Virus record (IMG/VR): IMGVR_UViG_3300035698_021529
Location: 1 to 20,630 of that record
Source of the DNA: a virus
Reading direction: 5' to 3' (one strand)
DNA length: 20,630 nt
In this document: positions 677-15,218 of the stretch, piece by piece
Layout of the letters: each line of letters begins with the position of its first letter
How positions within the stretch are numbered: position 1 is the stretch's first letter
The notes under the pieces: generated by a model
What the model was told of the DNA's origin: nothing
The model's input: the letters and a program-made list of their open reading frames with translations, nothing else
Database searches by the model: none
Program-made: the position numbers and the translations under genes

Positions 677-759
677 TCTACTGCCTCCTTAAAGTAATTC
701 TTCGCCGCTTCAAGGGCTTGTTCTTTTGCGGGGAGTTTTAGAAATTGGTTTATGGTCAT
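673..759 (-). CDS. 28-aa microprotein between sbcC C-half and the membrane protein
   Basis: A 28-codon frame (begins MTINQFLKLPAKEQALEAAK) that starts in an ATGA overlap with the stop of the SbcC C-terminal half and ends in an ATGA overlap with the start of the 102-aa gene. No independent ribosome binding site is visible, so it would depend on translational coupling. The two overlaps fit the style of the whole operon and fill the gap exactly. The peptide is predicted helical and amphipathic. It also carries the GGAGG site for the next gene inside its last codons, so it may act mainly as a translated leader. Function unknown. Confidence 0.5.
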   Translation of the reverse strand: MTINQFLKLPAKEQALEAAKNYFKEAVE

Positions 760-1325
760 AATTTTAAAACCTTTCCTATTTGTAATTCTGTTATATGAGT
801 CACCATAATAAATTGCATTTTAAAATCTTTTGCTAATCCTTTTAATAATGATTTTATATTGTCCCGATACTCCTCCGAAACAAATTTAAAAGGTTCATCC
901 AATATTAAAATTCTACGCAAAGACGGCTTTGCTAAAACTAAACAGGATAACCGTAAAGCAAATGCAGCAACATCCACAACACCACCACTATCAGAATTTA
1001 AAGCATCTTCGATCTCATAACCGTCTTTTAATAAAATCAAATTAGCTTCCGTTCTTCCACGTTTTCTTTCAAAGTTAATTTTAAATCCATAATTATCTTG
1101 AAATACTGTCTGCAAACACCTACTTACTACACCAGCTATTTGATGGTGTGCTTTTTGTTGTATTGTTTGAGACACTTGTTGTGTGATCAGTTGAGCTGTC
1201 CCTAAATACTCATAATCCATGACAGCTTTATCTAATGCTGAATTTTCGTTTTCATGGATTTGTTGAGCAGTATTTAAATCGTTTATTTTTTTATTTACTT
1301 TTTTTCTAGTTTCTAAAAGATTCAT
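756..1325 (-). CDS. SbcC/Rad50 C-terminal half (Walker B ATPase lobe), split gene
   Basis: This 189-aa protein is the C-terminal ATPase lobe of an SMC-like Rad50/SbcC (T4 gp46 type). A short helical N-terminus (about 1-60, the end of the descending coiled coil) leads to an ABC signature in reduced form, DSGG at 112-115 (usual LSGGE), Walker B ILILDEPF at 139-146 with D143 and E144, and an H-loop IMVTH with H177. Walker A is absent; it sits in a separate gene at 2991-4010, so the two products must pair to make each ATP site. I chose the ATG at 1325 because it follows the previous gene's TAA by one base (TAAtATG) and avoids a 60-nt overlap; an upstream non-ATG start would add 21 unlikely residues. 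Expected partner of the SbcD nuclease in end resection and recombination. Confidence 0.85.
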   Translation of the reverse strand: MNLLETRKKVNKKINDLNTAQQIHENENSALDKAVMDYEYLGTAQLITQQVSQTIQQKAHHQIAGVVSRCLQTVFQDNYGFKINFERKRGRTEANLILLKDGYEIEDALNSDSGGVVDVAAFALRLSCLVLAKPSLRRILILDEPFKFVSEEYRDNIKSLLKGLAKDFKMQFIMVTHITELQIGKVLKL

Positions 1326-1326
1326 A

Positions 1327-1638
1327 TTACTGATCCCATTTAATGTTGAAACACTCAGCGAAAGCAATCCACATAATCTTTCTTTCACTTTTTAATAAAG
1401 TGTGCATATAGGCATTCATACACCGTTTGAAAGATATGATCTTGCCGGTCAATTGATTATACCGATCTTTAGGATGCTGGCGGGCCTCCATGACATAGAG
1501 ATTAAATATCTCATAATTATTTTTTACTTCTACTCGTATATGACATTCAGTATCCACCATCTGTCTGCCTTTACGTGTAGGGTGTAATTTAACAAAATGA
1601 ACAGTAATAATTTTATCATCAAAATCAAATTTTTTCAT
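1327..1638 (-). CDS. Conserved-looking protein of unknown function inside the sbcCD cluster
   Basis: A 103-aa basic protein with a GGAG site 6 nt before the ATG. The N-terminal half alternates charged and hydrophobic residues in a beta pattern (DDKIITVHFVKLHPTRKG, then HIRVEV, then NLYVMEARQHP); the C-terminal half looks helical (GKIISFKRCMNAYMHTLLKS followed by ERKIMWIAFAE). I have seen this sort of fold in other phage early regions but cannot name a family. It lies between the coiled-coil gene and the SbcC C-terminal lobe, 3 nt after one and 1 nt before the other, so it is probably co-expressed with the SbcCD complex and may be a subunit or regulator; that is inference from position only. 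Confidence 0.7.
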   Translation of the reverse strand: MKKFDFDDKIITVHFVKLHPTRKGRQMVDTECHIRVEVKNNYEIFNLYVMEARQHPKDRYNQLTGKIISFKRCMNAYMHTLLKSERKIMWIAFAECFNIKWDQ

Positions 1639-1641
1639 TTT

Positions 1642-1887
1642 CTACTCCAAAGATTCATCCCATTTTTCTTCAAACGTTTTTATAGCTTCTAATAATTCAG
1701 TTTCAATAGAAACACTTTTGATTTTTAGTTGTTTCAATTTCTTTTTTGCTTCGTTTAACGTCTTGCAACCAAATTCACTTTTAAGTGTTTTCATAATCTG
1801 TTCTAAAGCACCCGCTGCTTTATCTGCTTTTTGTTGAGCAGCATCAACTTTCTTTTTTAATTGATTATATTCGTCGAGTGTTGCCAT
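1642..1887 (-). CDS. 81-aa coiled-coil protein, probable third piece of split SbcC
   Basis: Nearly the whole protein is heptad-patterned helix: residues 3-35 (starts DEYNQLKKKVDAAQQKADKA) and 46-78 (begins NEAKKKLKQLKIKSVSIETE), broken at residues 36-45 by LKSEFGCKTL, which looks like a turn. A helical hairpin of this kind is what the arms of Rad50/SbcC look like, and the gene sits between sbcD and the SbcC C-terminal lobe. It starts in a TAATG overlap with the zinc-ribbon frame upstream; GGAG lies about 9 nt before the ATG. It could supply part of the descending arm missing from the short C-terminal half. Alternatively it is an unrelated coiled-coil adaptor. The coiled coil is visible; the Rad50 assignment is inferred. 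Confidence 0.7.
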   Translation of the reverse strand: MATLDEYNQLKKKVDAAQQKADKAAGALEQIMKTLKSEFGCKTLNEAKKKLKQLKIKSVSIETELLEAIKTFEEKWDESLE

Positions 1888-2095
1888 TATTTTTTATCTC
1901 CAATAATTCCAGGATGTTCTTTGTTAATGCATTTTCTGCACAAATCAGGATGTGGCAATCCAGCCATCACCATCGCACCACAATCAGGGCAATGATATTG
2001 CCCGATAGGCTGACCTTTCAGTTTTTCTGGCTTTTCATCACATACTGCTTGAAAACCTCCTCTACAGAATCATAACACCGTCCACATATTAACAT
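1887..2095 (-). pseudogene. Zinc-ribbon small gene broken by a -1 frame change (frameshifting or indel)
   Basis: Starting at the TAATG overlap with the sbcD stop, frame one reads MLICGRCYDSVEEVF and stops at 2020-2018 after 25 codons. The -1 frame, open from about 2067, reads on through QYHCPDCGAM and LCRKC to a TAA at 1889-1887 that overlaps the ATG of the coiled-coil gene (TAATG). Joined, the product is about 69 aa with CGRC, CPDC and CRKC pairs, a typical phage zinc-ribbon protein. The second frame has no ATG, GTG or TTG start of its own. The switch could occur at the TTTT run near 2053-2056 or the A5 run just before the first stop (2026-2022). Either programmed -1 frameshifting or a one-base homopolymer error explains it; I cannot tell which. 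Confidence 0.55.
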
Positions 2096-3015
2096 TATTT
2101 TGTCTCCATTGCTTTAAGGATTATTTGCTTTACTTCTTTTATCGTTTTATGTGTTTTGAAAAACTGTTTCATTGCTTCTGTAAAATCTAATGCAGTATTT
2201 CCTAACTTTTCTAATTCCTCAATAAATTCTCCCATATCCATTTCTTCTTCAACAACATCTTCTCGAGCTGAAATATATCGATCTTGAGAAGTGTCTAAAT
2301 AATGTACTTCAATTTCTCCATCTGCTCTTAATAAACCTACTTGTGGTTTATAATTTATCTCATCTGATTTTCTTCTCATAAAAGTACCACAATTAAAAAC
2401 TGTAGATTTTGAGGTTTGTGATTTAAAACCTTTATGATTATCACCATAAACTATAATGTTATAACCTGATGCATTTGCTTTAGTAGGACTGTATTTGTTT
2501 TCTTCTGGTGCTCCCGGATATGAATGGCCTTTCATATGAATATATTCATGTGCTATTGCAATATGAATATCGCCCTCATCTGTGTTTTCAGTTTGTTTTT
2601 TTATTTTACTGCCAAAAGGAAAAGCATGAAGAATTACATTATTTATTCGAACAACACTATTTTTAATGTCCATGGTTTTTACAACGCCTATATTAACTAA
2701 TGTCCAATAGGCACTTTTCATTATATCTTCATAATTGTGTTGTGGTAAATCATGTTGTCCCGGAATAGCGATCATTTGAGGCATGTAGCAAGCAGCAAAA
2801 TTTATAAGTTCAGGAGGGCTATTCCATTTATCAAAAACATCACCAGCACAAATAATAGGGCAATTATGTTTTTGTTTTAGTTTAGTCAGTTCGAGTAAAG
2901 GTCTTCTCATCGCATCGTACCAATCTTCTTCAGCACTTCTCCAGATCGGAGGATTGTGTTGTAGGTGTATGTCAGCAACAAAAATTGCAATTATTTCGTC
3001 ATTGGTTTTTGACAT
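2095..3015 (-). CDS. sbcD: SbcD/Mre11-like nuclease (T4 gp47 type)
   Basis: A 306-aa calcineurin-like metallophosphoesterase. The Mre11 motifs appear in order: DIH (D15, H17), GDVFD (58-62), GQHD (86-89, where the family usually has GNHD), HAFPFG, IAHEYIH and GDNH. The Asn-to-Gln change in motif III touches a metal-site residue, though it need not inactivate. The C-terminal third is acidic and helical and probably the Rad50-binding part. I chose the ATG at 3015 (MSKTNDEI) because it follows GAAGGGAAG and gives a normal N-terminus right at the first beta strand; an upstream start would add 24 residues encoded inside the previous gene. It overlaps the SbcC N-half by 25 nt. With SbcC it would form the ATP-dependent exo/endonuclease that resects DNA ends for UvsX recombination. 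Confidence 0.93.
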   Translation of the reverse strand: MSKTNDEIIAIFVADIHLQHNPPIWRSAEEDWYDAMRRPLLELTKLKQKHNCPIICAGDVFDKWNSPPELINFAACYMPQMIAIPGQHDLPQHNYEDIMKSAYWTLVNIGVVKTMDIKNSVVRINNVILHAFPFGSKIKKQTENTDEGDIHIAIAHEYIHMKGHSYPGAPEENKYSPTKANASGYNIIVYGDNHKGFKSQTSKSTVFNCGTFMRRKSDEINYKPQVGLLRADGEIEVHYLDTSQDRYISAREDVVEEEMDMGEFIEELEKLGNTALDFTEAMKQFFKTHKTIKEVKQIILKAMETK

Positions 3016-4010
3016 AGTGGACACTTCCCTTCGATGGCTTTGCCTAATTGTTTTTTGCATAGTTTCAAATCGTTTTCTATTTGACATATCTTTTCCTGCT
3101 GATACTGAATGTCATCGATAATATCTTTCAGTGCATCATATAGATCATCTGTTGTGGTGTATTGCTTTTTCAATAATTTTATTTCATCAAATGATTCAGG
3201 TCTCCGTGATAGTTCGGTTTGATGGATTTTAGCTGATTTTATGCTATTACGTAGTGTTCTAATGGACATGCTGATATCTTGGCTATTCCTATACACTACA
3301 AGAGCTGAATCCCCTACGAGCTTCAGTTGTGCTGCGTTTTCTTTTGTTTTTAGTAGTCTAACACCTTTTGATAGTAGATCATCGATCCTGAGCGATTTTG
3401 AAGCGTTTTGTTCTTTTACTGTTTCGATATGCTCTATACGACATAAGTCTTCATTCATATCTTCAGCATATTGCAATTCTTTTTCTTTTTCAATCGCATT
3501 ACTTAATCTAAGTTCAGTTGATGTTTTTTCTTGTTTAGCTGCTGTTAATTTGGATGCGATGTCAGATAATGTGGTATCAATTACATCTAAGTTGATGATA
3601 GAATTTAATTGACGAGATACCTGTCCCGCTGTTTCTGAAAACCAAAAAGGAGCATCGTGTTGGTTTTGAAAATTGATATCTGATATATTCAAAAACTTTT
3701 CGATTTCAGGCGATACACCAGAACCGAACGCTACAAATGGTTTTTTATTCAATTTATATTTATTGATGGACTTGCTTCTTATGCGAGTAACTTTTGAATC
3801 ATCTGCAAATAATCTTATAATGGTTTTATCTTTACCCCATTTAATATACTGCATTCCGGATGGTTGATTTAACATAGCCAATCTTAATGCTCGTATGACA
3901 CAACTTTTCCCAGCATAACTTGAGCCGACTATAGAAGTGACACGAGGCCCAAATTCTAAATCTAATTTGGCATGCTTTCTGAAATTTCTTATTTCTATTT
4001 TTTCAATCAT
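2991..4010 (-). CDS. SbcC/Rad50 N-terminal half ending at the zinc hook, split gene
   Basis: A 339-aa protein carrying the N-terminal ATPase lobe: MIEKIEIRNFRKH first strand, Walker A GSSYAGKS (29-36), a Q-loop region around NFQNQHDAPF, then coiled coil from about 150 to 325. It ends with EGKCPLCQKPMTK, so the zinc-hook CxxC (C330, C333) sits nine residues before the stop. A full Rad50 would turn at the hook and run back to a Walker B lobe; here that half is encoded separately at 756-1325. The stop overlaps the start of sbcD by 25 nt, which should give balanced synthesis. The hook Cys pair can still dimerise with that of another molecule. The domain reading is strong; the idea that the separate pieces assemble is inferred. 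Confidence 0.9.
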   Translation of the reverse strand: MIEKIEIRNFRKHAKLDLEFGPRVTSIVGSSYAGKSCVIRALRLAMLNQPSGMQYIKWGKDKTIIRLFADDSKVTRIRSKSINKYKLNKKPFVAFGSGVSPEIEKFLNISDINFQNQHDAPFWFSETAGQVSRQLNSIINLDVIDTTLSDIASKLTAAKQEKTSTELRLSNAIEKEKELQYAEDMNEDLCRIEHIETVKEQNASKSLRIDDLLSKGVRLLKTKENAAQLKLVGDSALVVYRNSQDISMSIRTLRNSIKSAKIHQTELSRRPESFDEIKLLKKQYTTTDDLYDALKDIIDDIQYQQEKICQIENDLKLCKKQLGKAIEGKCPLCQKPMTK

Positions 4011-8589: not shown

Positions 8590-9815
8590 TCATCCATGTT
8601 TTGTATCATCGCAATCATCCCAGATGGAACAATCGGCACATCCTTGTAGTTCATCGGTATCCTTACCGAATCTACCCTTGGCTGGACATCTTACTTTTTT
8701 TTTGACTTCTTTTTACTCGCTTTCTTTTTGACAACCTTTTTCTTTGTTGTCTTTTTCTTAACAGTTTTCTTTTTGGTGACCTTTTTCTTTTTCTTCTTTA
8801 CTGGTTCATCAAAAGGGATGTCGTCCTCATCATCGTCGTCGTCATCATCATCATCGTCATCGTCATCATCATCGTCATCGTCGTCGTCATCATCATCGTC
8901 ATCTTCATCATCGTCGTCATCGTCATCTTCTTCATCATCTTCGTCATCGTCATCTTCTTCATCATCTTCGTCATCATCATCATCTTCGTCATCATCATCA
9001 TCATCATCATCTTTTTTCTTTTTCTTAGTTGCTTTCTTCTTTTTGGTTTTAGGCTCATCTTCTTCGGCGTCATCTTCATCATCTTCATCCTCATCTTCAA
9101 GGAGAAGTTTCTTCAATTCAGCATAAGTCTTGATGTCAAGAATATCGTCAAGACAAATAGCTTGATCCTGCAACTCTTCATCCAAATCATTCTTCTGCTT
9201 CTTAAAATCAATTCTCTCAACAGAAAAACCCTTGCCCATAAAACCAGATTCGACAATCATTTTCAGTGTATGATAATTATCAGGATCACAGAAAGTGTCC
9301 ATATTATCATCATCATCTTCATAAGCACTTTCTAATGCTTCGTCCATTGCTTTGCCAAAATAAGCATGTGAAGATTCCCATATCTTGACCTTATTGGCAT
9401 CTTCTTTAACGTCGACGATATTCATGATCATTCTTTTGCTGGGGCGCAAAGCTTTGATCACATCTTCATCTGCTTCTGGGTCTTTAGCAAGCTTTGCTGT
9501 AAACTCACAAATAGGACAAGGTTTCTGTGCTGTTCTTGCAGGACAGATAACCCAATCTTGATTAGGACCGATTCCTCTATGGACAAAGAATGTTCTTTCC
9601 CAATAACCCATGCCCTTGTCTGCTCTTGGGTTGCCCTTACCAACTTCATACGGAATAATACCAATTCTTGTTGTTTTAGCAGTCTTTAATGAAAAAGTCT
9701 CCACACCATTTGGGATCTTCAAAAATGATGGACCAAAACCTTGCCCTGCCGTTTCTCTCCTTTTCTTTGTTGATTCGCCTACACTAAGTTTCTTACGCTT
9801 TTTTCGTTTACTCAT
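8590..9815 (-). CDS. Single-stranded DNA-binding protein (gp32-like) with Asp tract; -1 frame Cys tail
   Basis: In frame zero this is 374 aa, ending at TAA 8693-8691. Residues 20-235 are the DNA-binding core, with a zinc-type cluster CPARTAQKPCPIC (91-103) as in T4 gp32-like phage SSBs. Residues 269-332 are almost only Asp and Glu; 333-338 reads IPFDEP and the C-terminus is almost all Lys. The last codons hold an A9 run followed by G and the TAA; a -1 slip there continues for 34 codons to TGA 8592-8590 and adds VRCPAKGRFG, CADCSIWDDC. The span drawn includes that tail; without it the gene is 8691-9815. Ribosome site GGAG is 7 nt before the ATG. It covers single strands for replication and recombination. 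Core assignment is secure, the tail is inferred. Confidence 0.9.
8820..9011 (-). repeat. GAT/GAC (Asp) trinucleotide tract in the SSB gene
   Basis: On the plus strand this is an almost pure run of tca, tcg and tct triplets, which on the coding strand is GAT/GAC with some GAA/GAG, for 64 codons. The synonymous mix suggests old repeat expansion plus selection for acidity, not a fresh microsatellite. Length change in steps of 3 nt would be in frame. Assemblies often collapse such tracts, so the true length may differ. Confidence 0.9.
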
Positions 9816-11662: not shown

Positions 11663-11829
11663 TAAACATTCTCCAATAACTCCTGTACTAAAATAGCATG
11701 CTTTAATTCATCTGAAAAGTTATCACCGTTTGTTTCCATGGCTTTATGCTTAATATTTTCGAGCATCCATGTATGAGACTCTTTTGCTTGTGCTACAACT
11801 TCTTCTAATAATTCTTTACGCTCACTCAT
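11662..11829 (-). CDS. 55-aa helical protein between polymerase and the small basic gene
   Basis: An open frame of 55 codons that begins in an ATGA overlap with the polymerase stop and ends in a TAATG overlap with the next gene. The product is acidic and helical (starts SERKELLEEVVAQAKESHTW, ends AILVQELLENV) with no motif known to me. It fills the gap of 166 nt between the neighbours exactly, and its last codons carry the GGAG ribosome site of the next gene. Possibly a small polymerase accessory, by position only. Confidence 0.7.
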   Translation of the reverse strand: MSERKELLEEVVAQAKESHTWMLENIKHKAMETNGDNFSDELKHAILVQELLENV

Positions 11830-13208
11830 ATCTTCCTTTCCTTTTTCTCATACCAACTACCACCAATAGGAGCAACTTCTGCATCGATATTTAGTGGTAC
11901 GTTAATCCATTTCCAATGCTTTCGTATATCGACTGTCATTACTTGTTTCACAATTTCTAAATAATTTTGTAATTCCTTTTTATAAACATCCGCAACTAAA
12001 CTATCATGGATCTGTCCGACAAGTAATGTTTTCATATTATATTTTTTGAGTAGTTTTTGGATCCGAATAATAGACCACAGTAGCCAATGAAATGCAGTTC
12101 CTTGTACTGGATAATTTATGACTTCGTTACGTTTCATTGAGCCTTCAATTCTAAAACCTGTTAATGTTTCAAAAAACCCATTTTTCAGATATTCATTATA
12201 CCAGTTCTTTTTCCATTTACCGTAAACTTTGAATCGTTTATTCCAGAAATCACCTTCGACTTCTTTTAAATGTCTTTCAAAAGTACCTTTTAATGGTCTT
12301 TTTTTTGGATTGCAATTTCCTAATCTTCTGACACCTTGACTTTGCAAATGCTCTTTTAAAGGAATACCATCTGCTGTTTGTAATTTCATTTTTCCTATAG
12401 CTTCCCAAAGGTTTTGGGCACAGTGTAAATAATAATCACCATAGAATTGCGGAAATACAAACATGTTTTTACCGCAATATCTGATTTCTTTATTGATCTG
12501 ATTTCTTTTTAGTTTGAAGCATTGTCCCGCCATATCTCGGTGCAAATCTTTAGTCTTGTCTTCAATGTAAGAAATCATTACCGGGTCTTTATGATAACAT
12601 GCAGCACCTGCAATCTCAACGCCACCATAATCGACTTCAACTATTCTATGATTTTTACGGGCAATAAAAGTCCGTCTGATTAACTTTGCCATTGTTGGAT
12701 CACGAATCGGTATATTTTGAAAATTAGGATTGCTGCTGCTGCTTCTATATGTTATCGCAAGATGAAGATTAAAAAATGGATGTAAATAACCATCAGTTGA
12801 TTCCTGTAAAATGCCACCCAAATATGTGCTGTTTGCTTTTTTTAATTTTTCGACCTTAAGCAGGTTCCTAACAAATGGCAAATCTATTTCTGATAAAGAA
12901 GTTGCATCCGCACATGGTCTACCAGTTGGTGTAAAAGAAGTACAGGGATATTTTTCGATCTCAAAAAGCACTATACCTAATTGTTGTCTTGAACCTAAAT
13001 TTGTTTCTTTTCCATATTTTTTTCTCCACGTTTTATATAGTTTATCTTTTTCTAATCTTTTGGTTGATCTTTTTATTTTCTTTTCTGTACTAGCAATTGT
13101 CCTATTTAAATAATCGACATCAATTTTCATACCGTTTGCTTCAATCTGAGATAAAGCAATACTGCCATTATGTAATAATTTATAAGCTTCGTTGGTAGTT
13201 GGTATCAT
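11826..13208 (-). CDS. Family-A DNA polymerase, polymerase domain only
   Basis: A 460-aa protein holding the palm, fingers and thumb of PolA without the exonuclease parts. Landmarks: FTPTGRPCADATS (93-104), SSNPNFQNIPIR (158-169), motif A VEVDYGGVEIAG (D193), O-helix RYCGKNMFVFPQFYG (R243, K247, F252, Y256), NEVINYPVQGTA (361-372) and motif C GQIHDSLVA (H401, D402). The O-helix has one residue more between K and F than E. coli PolA, and motif C has Ser where the family often has Glu. The partner 3'-5' exonuclease is a separate gene at 14025-15218, fused to a glycosylase. The ATG overlaps the previous TGA (ATGA). This is the phage's replicative polymerase. Confidence 0.95.
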   Translation of the reverse strand: MIPTTNEAYKLLHNGSIALSQIEANGMKIDVDYLNRTIASTEKKIKRSTKRLEKDKLYKTWRKKYGKETNLGSRQQLGIVLFEIEKYPCTSFTPTGRPCADATSLSEIDLPFVRNLLKVEKLKKANSTYLGGILQESTDGYLHPFFNLHLAITYRSSSSNPNFQNIPIRDPTMAKLIRRTFIARKNHRIVEVDYGGVEIAGAACYHKDPVMISYIEDKTKDLHRDMAGQCFKLKRNQINKEIRYCGKNMFVFPQFYGDYYLHCAQNLWEAIGKMKLQTADGIPLKEHLQSQGVRRLGNCNPKKRPLKGTFERHLKEVEGDFWNKRFKVYGKWKKNWYNEYLKNGFFETLTGFRIEGSMKRNEVINYPVQGTAFHWLLWSIIRIQKLLKKYNMKTLLVGQIHDSLVADVYKKELQNYLEIVKQVMTVDIRKHWKWINVPLNIDAEVAPIGGSWYEKKERKI

Positions 13209-13711: not shown

Positions 13712-14025
13712 TATGATTTCTCCATTATAATTTTTTTAATAGTTTCGGCATGGCATCTTTTCGGAGCACACCAACAAAATAATCTTAACTTACCAAATTG
13801 TTCATAAATATTTGCTAATCGGATTATCTCTGATACAATAAAAGTGTCACTACTGGCTATTCTTTTTTGTAACCAGGCTCCGTATTTATCGCAAACTAAA
13901 TCTCTTTGTGATTCCTTTTCTAATAGAAAAGGATTACCTAAAGGTGATTTTCCCCGGCAAACTTTTATATCCCATGGATTTATTATTTTATTTTTTCTTA
14001 AATTGCAAATTACTATATTACCCAT
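13711..14025 (-). CDS. DUF4326-like protein
   Basis: A 104-aa protein. The middle carries KVCRGKSPLGNPFLLEKESQ, then VCDKYGAWLQKRI, and the end YEQFGKLRLFCWCAPKRCHA, i.e. the 'RpSkwGNPF ... WL ... G.dL.CWCaP..CHg..L' pattern of DUF4326. That family is common in phages next to nucleotide and DNA metabolism genes; its activity is not known to me. The gene is bounded by TAATG overlaps on both sides with GGAGAAA preceding each ATG. Confidence 0.85.
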   Translation of the reverse strand: MGNIVICNLRKNKIINPWDIKVCRGKSPLGNPFLLEKESQRDLVCDKYGAWLQKRIASSDTFIVSEIIRLANIYEQFGKLRLFCWCAPKRCHAETIKKIIMEKS

Positions 14026-15218
14026 TAGAATTTCTCCATCATTTTAATTTGTTTCATCGCCACTTTATACTCGAGCAAACTGTCGAGGCCATTGTATAAT
14101 AATAACTCTTTCAAATCCAATTCTTTTATTCGATTAAATTCATTTTTTCCTGATTTCAGATAAGGTTTGATATGATGATCATAATCACCAACACCAAAAA
14201 GAACAAACGATTGAAATTTAACACTTGTAATCCCGCTTCTGTTATCTAAAACATGGGCAGCAAGCATTGTGTCCCATATCCAATTCCTAACATGGAATCC
14301 TAATTTTGCTTTTGTCCACCGATCTTCAAATTTTAGATTAGATGCTATTTTGCCACATTTTGATTTTAGTAGTTTTATAGTTTCATCTATTGCAGAACCG
14401 TGCCATGGATATGCTATTGTTCTTTTGCCATTCCAACAGACAGAACAAGAAACGATCTCTGCTCTTTCATCATCTGGCTTTAAACAGTTGCATTCATAAT
14501 CAAAAGCAAAGTTTCCTTTTTTACCTTGTAAATCTTTTAAAAACTTTGCTGCTTTATTTGGATTCATTTCTACTTCGATTTGTTTTTCAAAGTTTGGTAT
14601 TGTTTCCCATGGTTTTGTTTTCTTTCTTACTGCTGTTTTGATATGCTTCTCAAATATCTTAGTTAATATATTGTCATTTCTGTTTAATAAATAAGACGGA
14701 TGATATGTAGATATTATCCAAGCATTTGGTTTGTGGTTTGGAATGCAAAAGCCAGCCCATCGGCCTAAAGCATCCACTTTGCTCACCCATATTGGCTTGA
14801 TCAGAGATTTTAAAGCAGCATTTCCCAATAAGATGATAATATTGGGATCGTGTTTTTTGATTGTCTTCATTAAATTAGGACGGCAGCAAGTAATTCTTGT
14901 ATCACTGATAGGTCCTTCTGTTTTGGGTTTACATATTACAGCATTAGTTCTTATGCAATCTTTATATAGATTCACACCTGCTTTGAGCAATGCCTTTTCT
15001 AATAATCCATCTTTTCTGAACACGATAGGATTATTTTTCTTGTCTTCCTTATATCCGGGTGCTTCTGAAACGATCAGAATCTTTTTCTTGCCTTTACCAG
15101 CAGGCTGTATTTTAGGCGAACGACAAGTTTTAGCATAACCACATAAGCCACATTGCGCTAATATGGATGTGGGTGCGGAGCTTGCTATTTTAGAATTATT
15201 AAAAAAGGTGTTATTCAT
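14025..15218 (-). CDS. Uracil-DNA glycosylase (family 4 like) fused to 3'-5' exonuclease
   Basis: A 397-aa two-domain protein. Residues 20-190 are a UDG-superfamily domain: C23 and C26, then C96 and C111 in the spacing of the 4Fe-4S cluster of family 4 (x2, x69, x14), motif SEAPG (51-55) and HPSYLL (173-178). Residues 236-397 are the DnaQ/PolA-type proofreading domain: ExoI FAFDYE (D240, E242), ExoII NLKFED (294-299, with Glu where PolA has Asp, then Asp), DTMLA (D316), ExoIII YNGLDS (Y375, D379). The polymerase partner is separate. UDG would scan for uracil or deaminated bases in front of the fork, or process a modified base if the genome is hypermodified. Start overlaps the methyltransferase stop (ATGA). 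Domains are clear, the role is inferred. Confidence 0.92.
   Translation of the reverse strand: MNNTFFNNSKIASSAPTSILAQCGLCGYAKTCRSPKIQPAGKGKKKILIVSEAPGYKEDKKNNPIVFRKDGLLEKALLKAGVNLYKDCIRTNAVICKPKTEGPISDTRITCCRPNLMKTIKKHDPNIIILLGNAALKSLIKPIWVSKVDALGRWAGFCIPNHKPNAWIISTYHPSYLLNRNDNILTKIFEKHIKTAVRKKTKPWETIPNFEKQIEVEMNPNKAAKFLKDLQGKKGNFAFDYECNCLKPDDERAEIVSCSVCWNGKRTIAYPWHGSAIDETIKLLKSKCGKIASNLKFEDRWTKAKLGFHVRNWIWDTMLAAHVLDNRSGITSVKFQSFVLFGVGDYDHHIKPYLKSGKNEFNRIKELDLKELLLYNGLDSLLEYKVAMKQIKMMEKF

Follow-up and report, generated by a model that had tools for sequence, protein, structure and literature searches.

The question raised by this locus is whether a Rad50/SbcC ATPase, in known systems one chain that runs from the N-lobe through an ascending helix, a zinc hook and a descending helix to the C-lobe, can be encoded as separate proteins cut at the hook. 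The locus is part of a 20,630-base virus record (IMG/VR IMGVR_UViG_3300035698_021529), a phage fragment from a replication and recombination region that is referred to here, at its full length, as the window. A sequence-only reading of the window had proposed such a cut, with an Mre11 gene and small genes between the pieces. The genes are arranged on the minus strand, from position 4010 to 756, in the sequence N (N-lobe protein), M (Mre11), a zinc-ribbon frame, K, an open reading frame (ORF) of 103 amino acids (aa) and C (C-lobe protein). The best explanation is that the locus very probably encodes a phage Mre11-Rad50 end-processing complex with Rad50 in separate chains, and that N and C form its head can be put forward with high confidence. 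The parts that bear on the question are the following.

2991..4010, minus strand: N, the N-lobe protein, 339 aa (N-lobe 1-140, helical arm 141-326, zinc hook CPLC, six-residue tail); AAA_23 above cut-off
3903..3926, minus strand: Walker A GSSYAGKS, N residues 29-36; G29, G34 and K35 invariant in 87 relatives
3660..3662, minus strand: Q-loop Gln117 of N; invariant in 87 relatives
3012..3023, minus strand: zinc-hook motif CPLC, N residues 330-333; C330 and C333 invariant in 87 relatives
2095..3015, minus strand: M, Mre11/SbcD-like nuclease, 306 aa; Metallophos above cut-off; near N in nearly all relatives
1642..1887, minus strand: K, 81-aa coiled-coil protein with two predicted helices flanking an EFGCKTLNEA loop; conserved family, scanned on its own
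756..1325, minus strand: C, the C-lobe protein, 189 aa (helical arm at the N-terminus, then the Rad50 C-lobe), with its ATG at 1325
981..989, minus strand: signature-motif region SGG of C, residues 113-115; G113-G115 nearly invariant in relatives, SGG in the window
894..899, minus strand: Walker B Asp143-Glu144 of C (ILILDEPFKF); invariant in 87 relatives
795..797, minus strand: H-switch His177 of C (MVTHI); nearly invariant in the N-C alignment

IMG/VR was queried with N, C, Mre11 and K, and about 400 loci were gathered, whose ORFs were all searched with profiles, giving 369 N, 383 C, 376 Mre11 and 374 K ORFs (duplicates included). All four genes were present in 231 loci, counted once per distinct N gene, in the order N-M-K-C in 194, N-K-C-M in 32 and other orders in the remaining five. 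The proposed cut at the zinc hook is real and recurs, the last CxxC starting 6-24 residues from the C-terminus of N in 103 of 107 non-redundant representatives, and the two hook cysteines, like the Walker A residues and the Q-loop glutamine, are invariant across the 87 aligned N sequences. N of the window ends in CPLCQKPMTK; its tail is short, as had been noticed, although six residues (QKPMTK) follow the motif, the nine reported earlier being counted from the first cysteine. The Mre11 start ATG sits within the hook codons of N, so that the two genes overlap. In some N chains up to about 20 residues follow CPxC and resemble the start of the Rad50 descending helix. The same division is seen against the SbcC family phrog_77 (967 positions), in which positions of about 297-650 match N and about 869-954 match C, in different ORFs of the same contigs, while about 200 positions between the two matches, where the descending arm would be, are unmatched.

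Median ratios of nonsynonymous to synonymous substitution (dN/dS) between close pairs were 0.17 for N, 0.13 for M, 0.12 for K and 0.13 for C, from 19-22 counted pairs, some of which are duplicate contigs, leaving fewer independent pairs. Purifying selection acts on all four genes. Judged from their sequences, hundreds of phages encode Rad50 as separate proteins. A scan of genome contigs with query alignment A1 returned a single locus, in Sutcliffiella horikoshii.

The two lobes were compared with known families and structures. N of the window matches Pfam AAA_23 with 41 bits against a cut-off of 27, and its AlphaFold model (87 sequences) has a predicted local distance difference test score (pLDDT) of 90, with helices at 141-178 and 180-268, a break at 269-274 and a helix at 275-326 that is followed by the hook. 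The top Protein Data Bank (PDB) match of this model by Foldseek is 1F2U chain A, from a two-chain Rad50 head. C is 210 aa long if an upstream GTG is taken as the start, and matches PHROG 15167, annotated as an ATPase (phrog_15167, E=6e-27), and the SbcC family phrog_77 (E=4.5e-6); its PDB matches are weak and are Rad50 C-lobe chains, so that for both lobes the best PDB matches are Rad50 lobes. The earlier description of C as a 189-aa protein with hardly any coiled coil was correct in length, and C does have some coil, as it opens with a helical arm.

A joint head was examined at the related locus L287, whose N and C genes are in frame with each other, by reading through the stops between them; 26 such rows aligned all motifs. 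The resulting AlphaFold model (743 aa) has most of both lobes at pLDDT 80-96 and one helix that spans the arm of C plus its base helix, with a predicted template modelling score (pTM) of 0.54. Against complete Rad50 heads this model, with its artificial linker and pTM of 0.54, reached TMt values of 0.71 (3QKT_A) and 0.68 (3QKU_A), and the model of window N only reached 0.26 and 0.25, respectively. One lobe alone should not give 0.71 and 0.68. With its artificial linker, the read-through model supports, but does not prove, the assembly of free N and C chains.

The sequence-only reading had named a full-length Rad50 elsewhere in the genome as evidence against it. No second Rad50-type N-lobe was found in 32 of 33 records of 45-143 kb (31 IMG/VR contigs plus the phages vB_BboS-125 and Magritte), the single AAA_23 match in each being the split N, and the remaining record has a second AAA_23 match below the cut-off. 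The complete genome of Microcystis phage Mvi-JY20 likewise has one AAA_23 match and no second Rad50-type N-lobe. The search of related phages for fused versions, also proposed earlier, gave no N-C or K-C fusion among the ORFs of the approximately 400 loci. ORFs of L317 and L052 with a weak second match to K were rejected as coiled-coil cross-hits. Mre11 is fused in front of N in four ORFs of large phages (L305, L312, L313 and L316), three of which end soon after CPxC and one (L316) after CGEC. In all four of these loci C is a separate gene, and in L305, probably Bacillus phage 0305phi8-36, the C and K genes follow the fusion. Mre11 does lie between the lobe genes in the window, as had been said, but its position there is incidental, because 32 loci have the order N-K-C-M and four have Mre11 fused before N.

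The split form is also carried by cultured phages. Mvi-JY20 has a complete overlapping N-M-K-C set in which all four genes are annotated as hypothetical, and its N has the C-terminus CSQCNRLVLGGNPCQSSS. In Bacillus phage vB_BboS-125 (NC_048735), gp32 is N (annotated "exonuclease"), gp34 is K (hypothetical) and gp35 is C ("ATPase"), with an Mre11-like ORF downstream. This phage shares with the window an N that ends in CPLC and K and C in one cluster, and differs in its longer-armed N of 471 aa, in an AP2-domain gene between N and K, and in not being annotated as a split Rad50. In Microbacterium phage Magritte (L005/L006), N (gp155) is without CxxC and represents a hook-free version.

The split head is strongly supported because it recurs in hundreds of loci, almost none of the genomes searched has a second Rad50-type N-lobe, all ATPase motifs are kept over the two chains, and a joint head is predicted. 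From the N chain would come the N-lobe with Walker A and Q-loop, and the ascending arm with the zinc hook at its end; the C chain would add the C-lobe, with signature, Walker B and H-switch, and a little of the arm. The two lobes would unite into one ABC-ATPase head. Two such heads would close on ATP with Mre11 docked at their base, and we infer ATPase and nuclease activity for the complex. Two N chains would be joined by sharing one zinc ion between the CxxC motifs at their ends, each chain stopping at the hook and not turning back; such a hook-to-hook dimer through the N C-termini is probable, though less firmly so than the head. K (about 80 aa, encoded just upstream of C) would pack on the N arm, most likely replacing the lost middle of the descending arm. 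What the phage gains may be an independent supply of the lobes or an adjustable arm length, both of which are guesses.

Several observations weigh against this scheme. The joint-head model comes from two genes read through artificially, with a linker that is out of frame, and its pTM is only 0.54. Most Mre11 partners carry GQHD and GDxH instead of the canonical GNHD and GHxH: of the five phosphoesterase motifs, DIH and GDVFD are present in Mre11 of the window, where GQHD and GDNH stand at the positions of the canonical motifs, and among 258 Mre11 relatives GQHD occurs in about 160 and GDxH in about 190. Metal binding of these relatives, as far as their motifs indicate, may differ from the canonical form. 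The N arm varies from about 140 to 350 residues across relatives, while K and C stay short and do not lengthen with N, so that in members with long arms they cannot together make up the whole of a returning arm; some of the N arm there has to double back on itself, to pair with a second copy or to remain unpaired. The covariation signal along the arm mostly reflects relatedness, with no more than a faint anti-diagonal where the turn is predicted and, at offsets of 44-46 residues, an excess that is unexplained, and it is too noisy to tell a hairpin from a straight rod.

The place of K is the part of the scheme with the most serious rival, namely that the head is split and K, instead of forming part of an arm, regulates or inhibits the complex as a separate protein. 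The earlier note was right that an 81-aa coiled-coil protein with two predicted helices lies between the lobe genes; relatives of K are 75-146 aa long. The shortness of K, its two predicted helices around a conserved loop and its failure to scale with N-arm length suit a regulator, but the order N-K-C tracks the Rad50 chain, and K is retained in nearly all sets and usually adjoins C, often overlapping it (median gap -4 nucleotides). Of 34 new loci reached by a scan with K only, 30 had K beside C, and most had it beside N and Mre11. It is plausible that the returning arm is made up of K and the C-lobe helix, since the gene order follows the Rad50 chain and K is conserved and selected. The chances that K is a piece of the arm are about even, and those that it is a regulator somewhat lower. 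Of the earlier proposal of a head with arms supplied by separate chains, the split head with a hook on one chain is thus upheld by conservation, motifs and the predicted joint head, while the returning arm made of K and the C helix is only plausible.

A further arrangement, which we regard as tentative and on balance doubtful, is an open-armed Rad50 whose N arm is a self-supporting array of helical repeats of about 47 residues, lengthened or shortened by whole repeats, unpaired and with the hook on its free end, with K and the C-lobe subunits at the base. The N-arm length, measured from Asp145 to the hook in 219 representatives, fell into groups with medians of 144, 192, 235, 297 and 346 and few arms between them, and self-comparison of the arm gave repeats of 47 and 94 residues, clearest in long arms. 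Prolines concentrate about 57 residues ahead of the hook, with weaker clusters further out at roughly one-repeat spacing. If such an arm were real, the ATP state could be coupled to the hook even without a two-stranded coiled coil that runs unbroken between them.

The remaining rivals deny the joint head itself. N and C could act apart, N as a DNA-bridging zinc-hook protein and C as a regulatory ATP-binding fragment, and the genes are indeed distant in a few phages, such as Magritte (gp155 at 93.8 kb and gp2, its C, at 0.4 kb of a 133-kb linear record) and the L003 contig. This is improbable, as either ATPase motif set is incomplete alone and yet both are conserved, N and C are neighbours in nearly all loci, and the joint model gives a Rad50 head. 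Smaller still is the probability that the pieces are joined during or after expression into a single-chain Rad50, by trans-splicing, a split intein or frameshifting; N and C of the window do lie in one frame (4010-756+1 = 3255), but many stops and usually the whole Mre11 gene lie between them, only some of the loci have N and C in a common frame, the two genes can be many kb apart, and the chain ends showed no additional domain. A decayed rad50, which a single contig could resemble, is rejected with next to no probability left to it, the same breakpoint in hundreds of diverse contigs, the invariant motifs and the dN/dS of 0.12-0.17 ruling it out.

By descent, the divided phage protein is a Rad50/SbcC that departs from ordinary members. 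The N-lobe and C-lobe motifs, the CxxC hook at the end of the ascending arm and, in 231 loci, an Mre11 gene nearby are all present; one continuous polypeptide is lacking, and it is for this reason not an ordinary member. With Rad50/SbcC and its Mre11/SbcD partner (T4 gp46/gp47, E. coli SbcCD, archaeal Rad50-Mre11) it shares the lobes and their motifs, the CPxC hook, the Mre11 partner and the best structural matches, and it differs in a chain that ends at the hook, a separate C-lobe with a short arm and the extra protein K. The P. furiosus Rad50 head (1F2T/1F2U) likewise consists of separate N-lobe and C-lobe chains, but was made in the laboratory by truncating a single-chain protein and has neither arms nor hook. 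Rad50 and SMC (structural maintenance of chromosomes) models take a continuous two-stranded coil to be the path by which ATP-driven changes in the head reach the hook or hinge, and a natural Rad50 with its strands on different chains and its hook close to a free C-terminus offers a direct way of testing this. Its small parts would be convenient for structural work, and phage genes labelled "exonuclease", "ATPase" or hypothetical become one recognisable complex.

No description of a split Rad50 in phages was found in the open literature, subscription papers being outside this coverage. Fusions of Mre11 and Rad50 are described, in a 2011 survey, for Mimivirus R555 and Bacillus phage 0305phi8-36, and one P-loop segment was not observed there in the 0305phi8-36 fusion (PMC3175470). 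A separate C-lobe gene may explain that missing lobe. Lamassu LmuB is a Rad50-like ATPase with short arms that often bears a CPxCG hook (PMC10586767); it differs in its total length of about 650 aa and in belonging to a defence system.

Apart from K, the small genes of the window do not belong to the conserved set. One of those noticed earlier is intact, and the other, the zinc ribbon, looks frame-shifted.

1327..1638, minus strand: 103-aa ORF between K and C, intact and accessory, outside the conserved set; no match above cut-off in a family search
about 1890-2094, minus strand: zinc-ribbon coding frame CPDCG...CRKC, with phrog_34602/29033 matches and without a usable in-frame start

The zinc-ribbon frame is preceded by MLICGRCYDSVEEVFKQ in another frame, as from a frameshift that is either natural or from sequencing. 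The window also codes for a DNA polymerase A, a clamp loader, a RecA-like protein, a 5'-3' exonuclease and a PDDEXK nuclease. The DNA polymerase A is also in pieces (11826-13208 and 14025-15218, both on the minus strand), one gene carrying the polymerase domain and the other a uracil-DNA glycosylase domain joined to a 3'-5' exonuclease domain. The protein at 8691-9815 (minus strand), whose gene lies between those for the RecA-like protein and the clamp loader, has a long acidic, mostly Asp stretch and a lysine-rich tail, and is possibly a single-strand binding protein.

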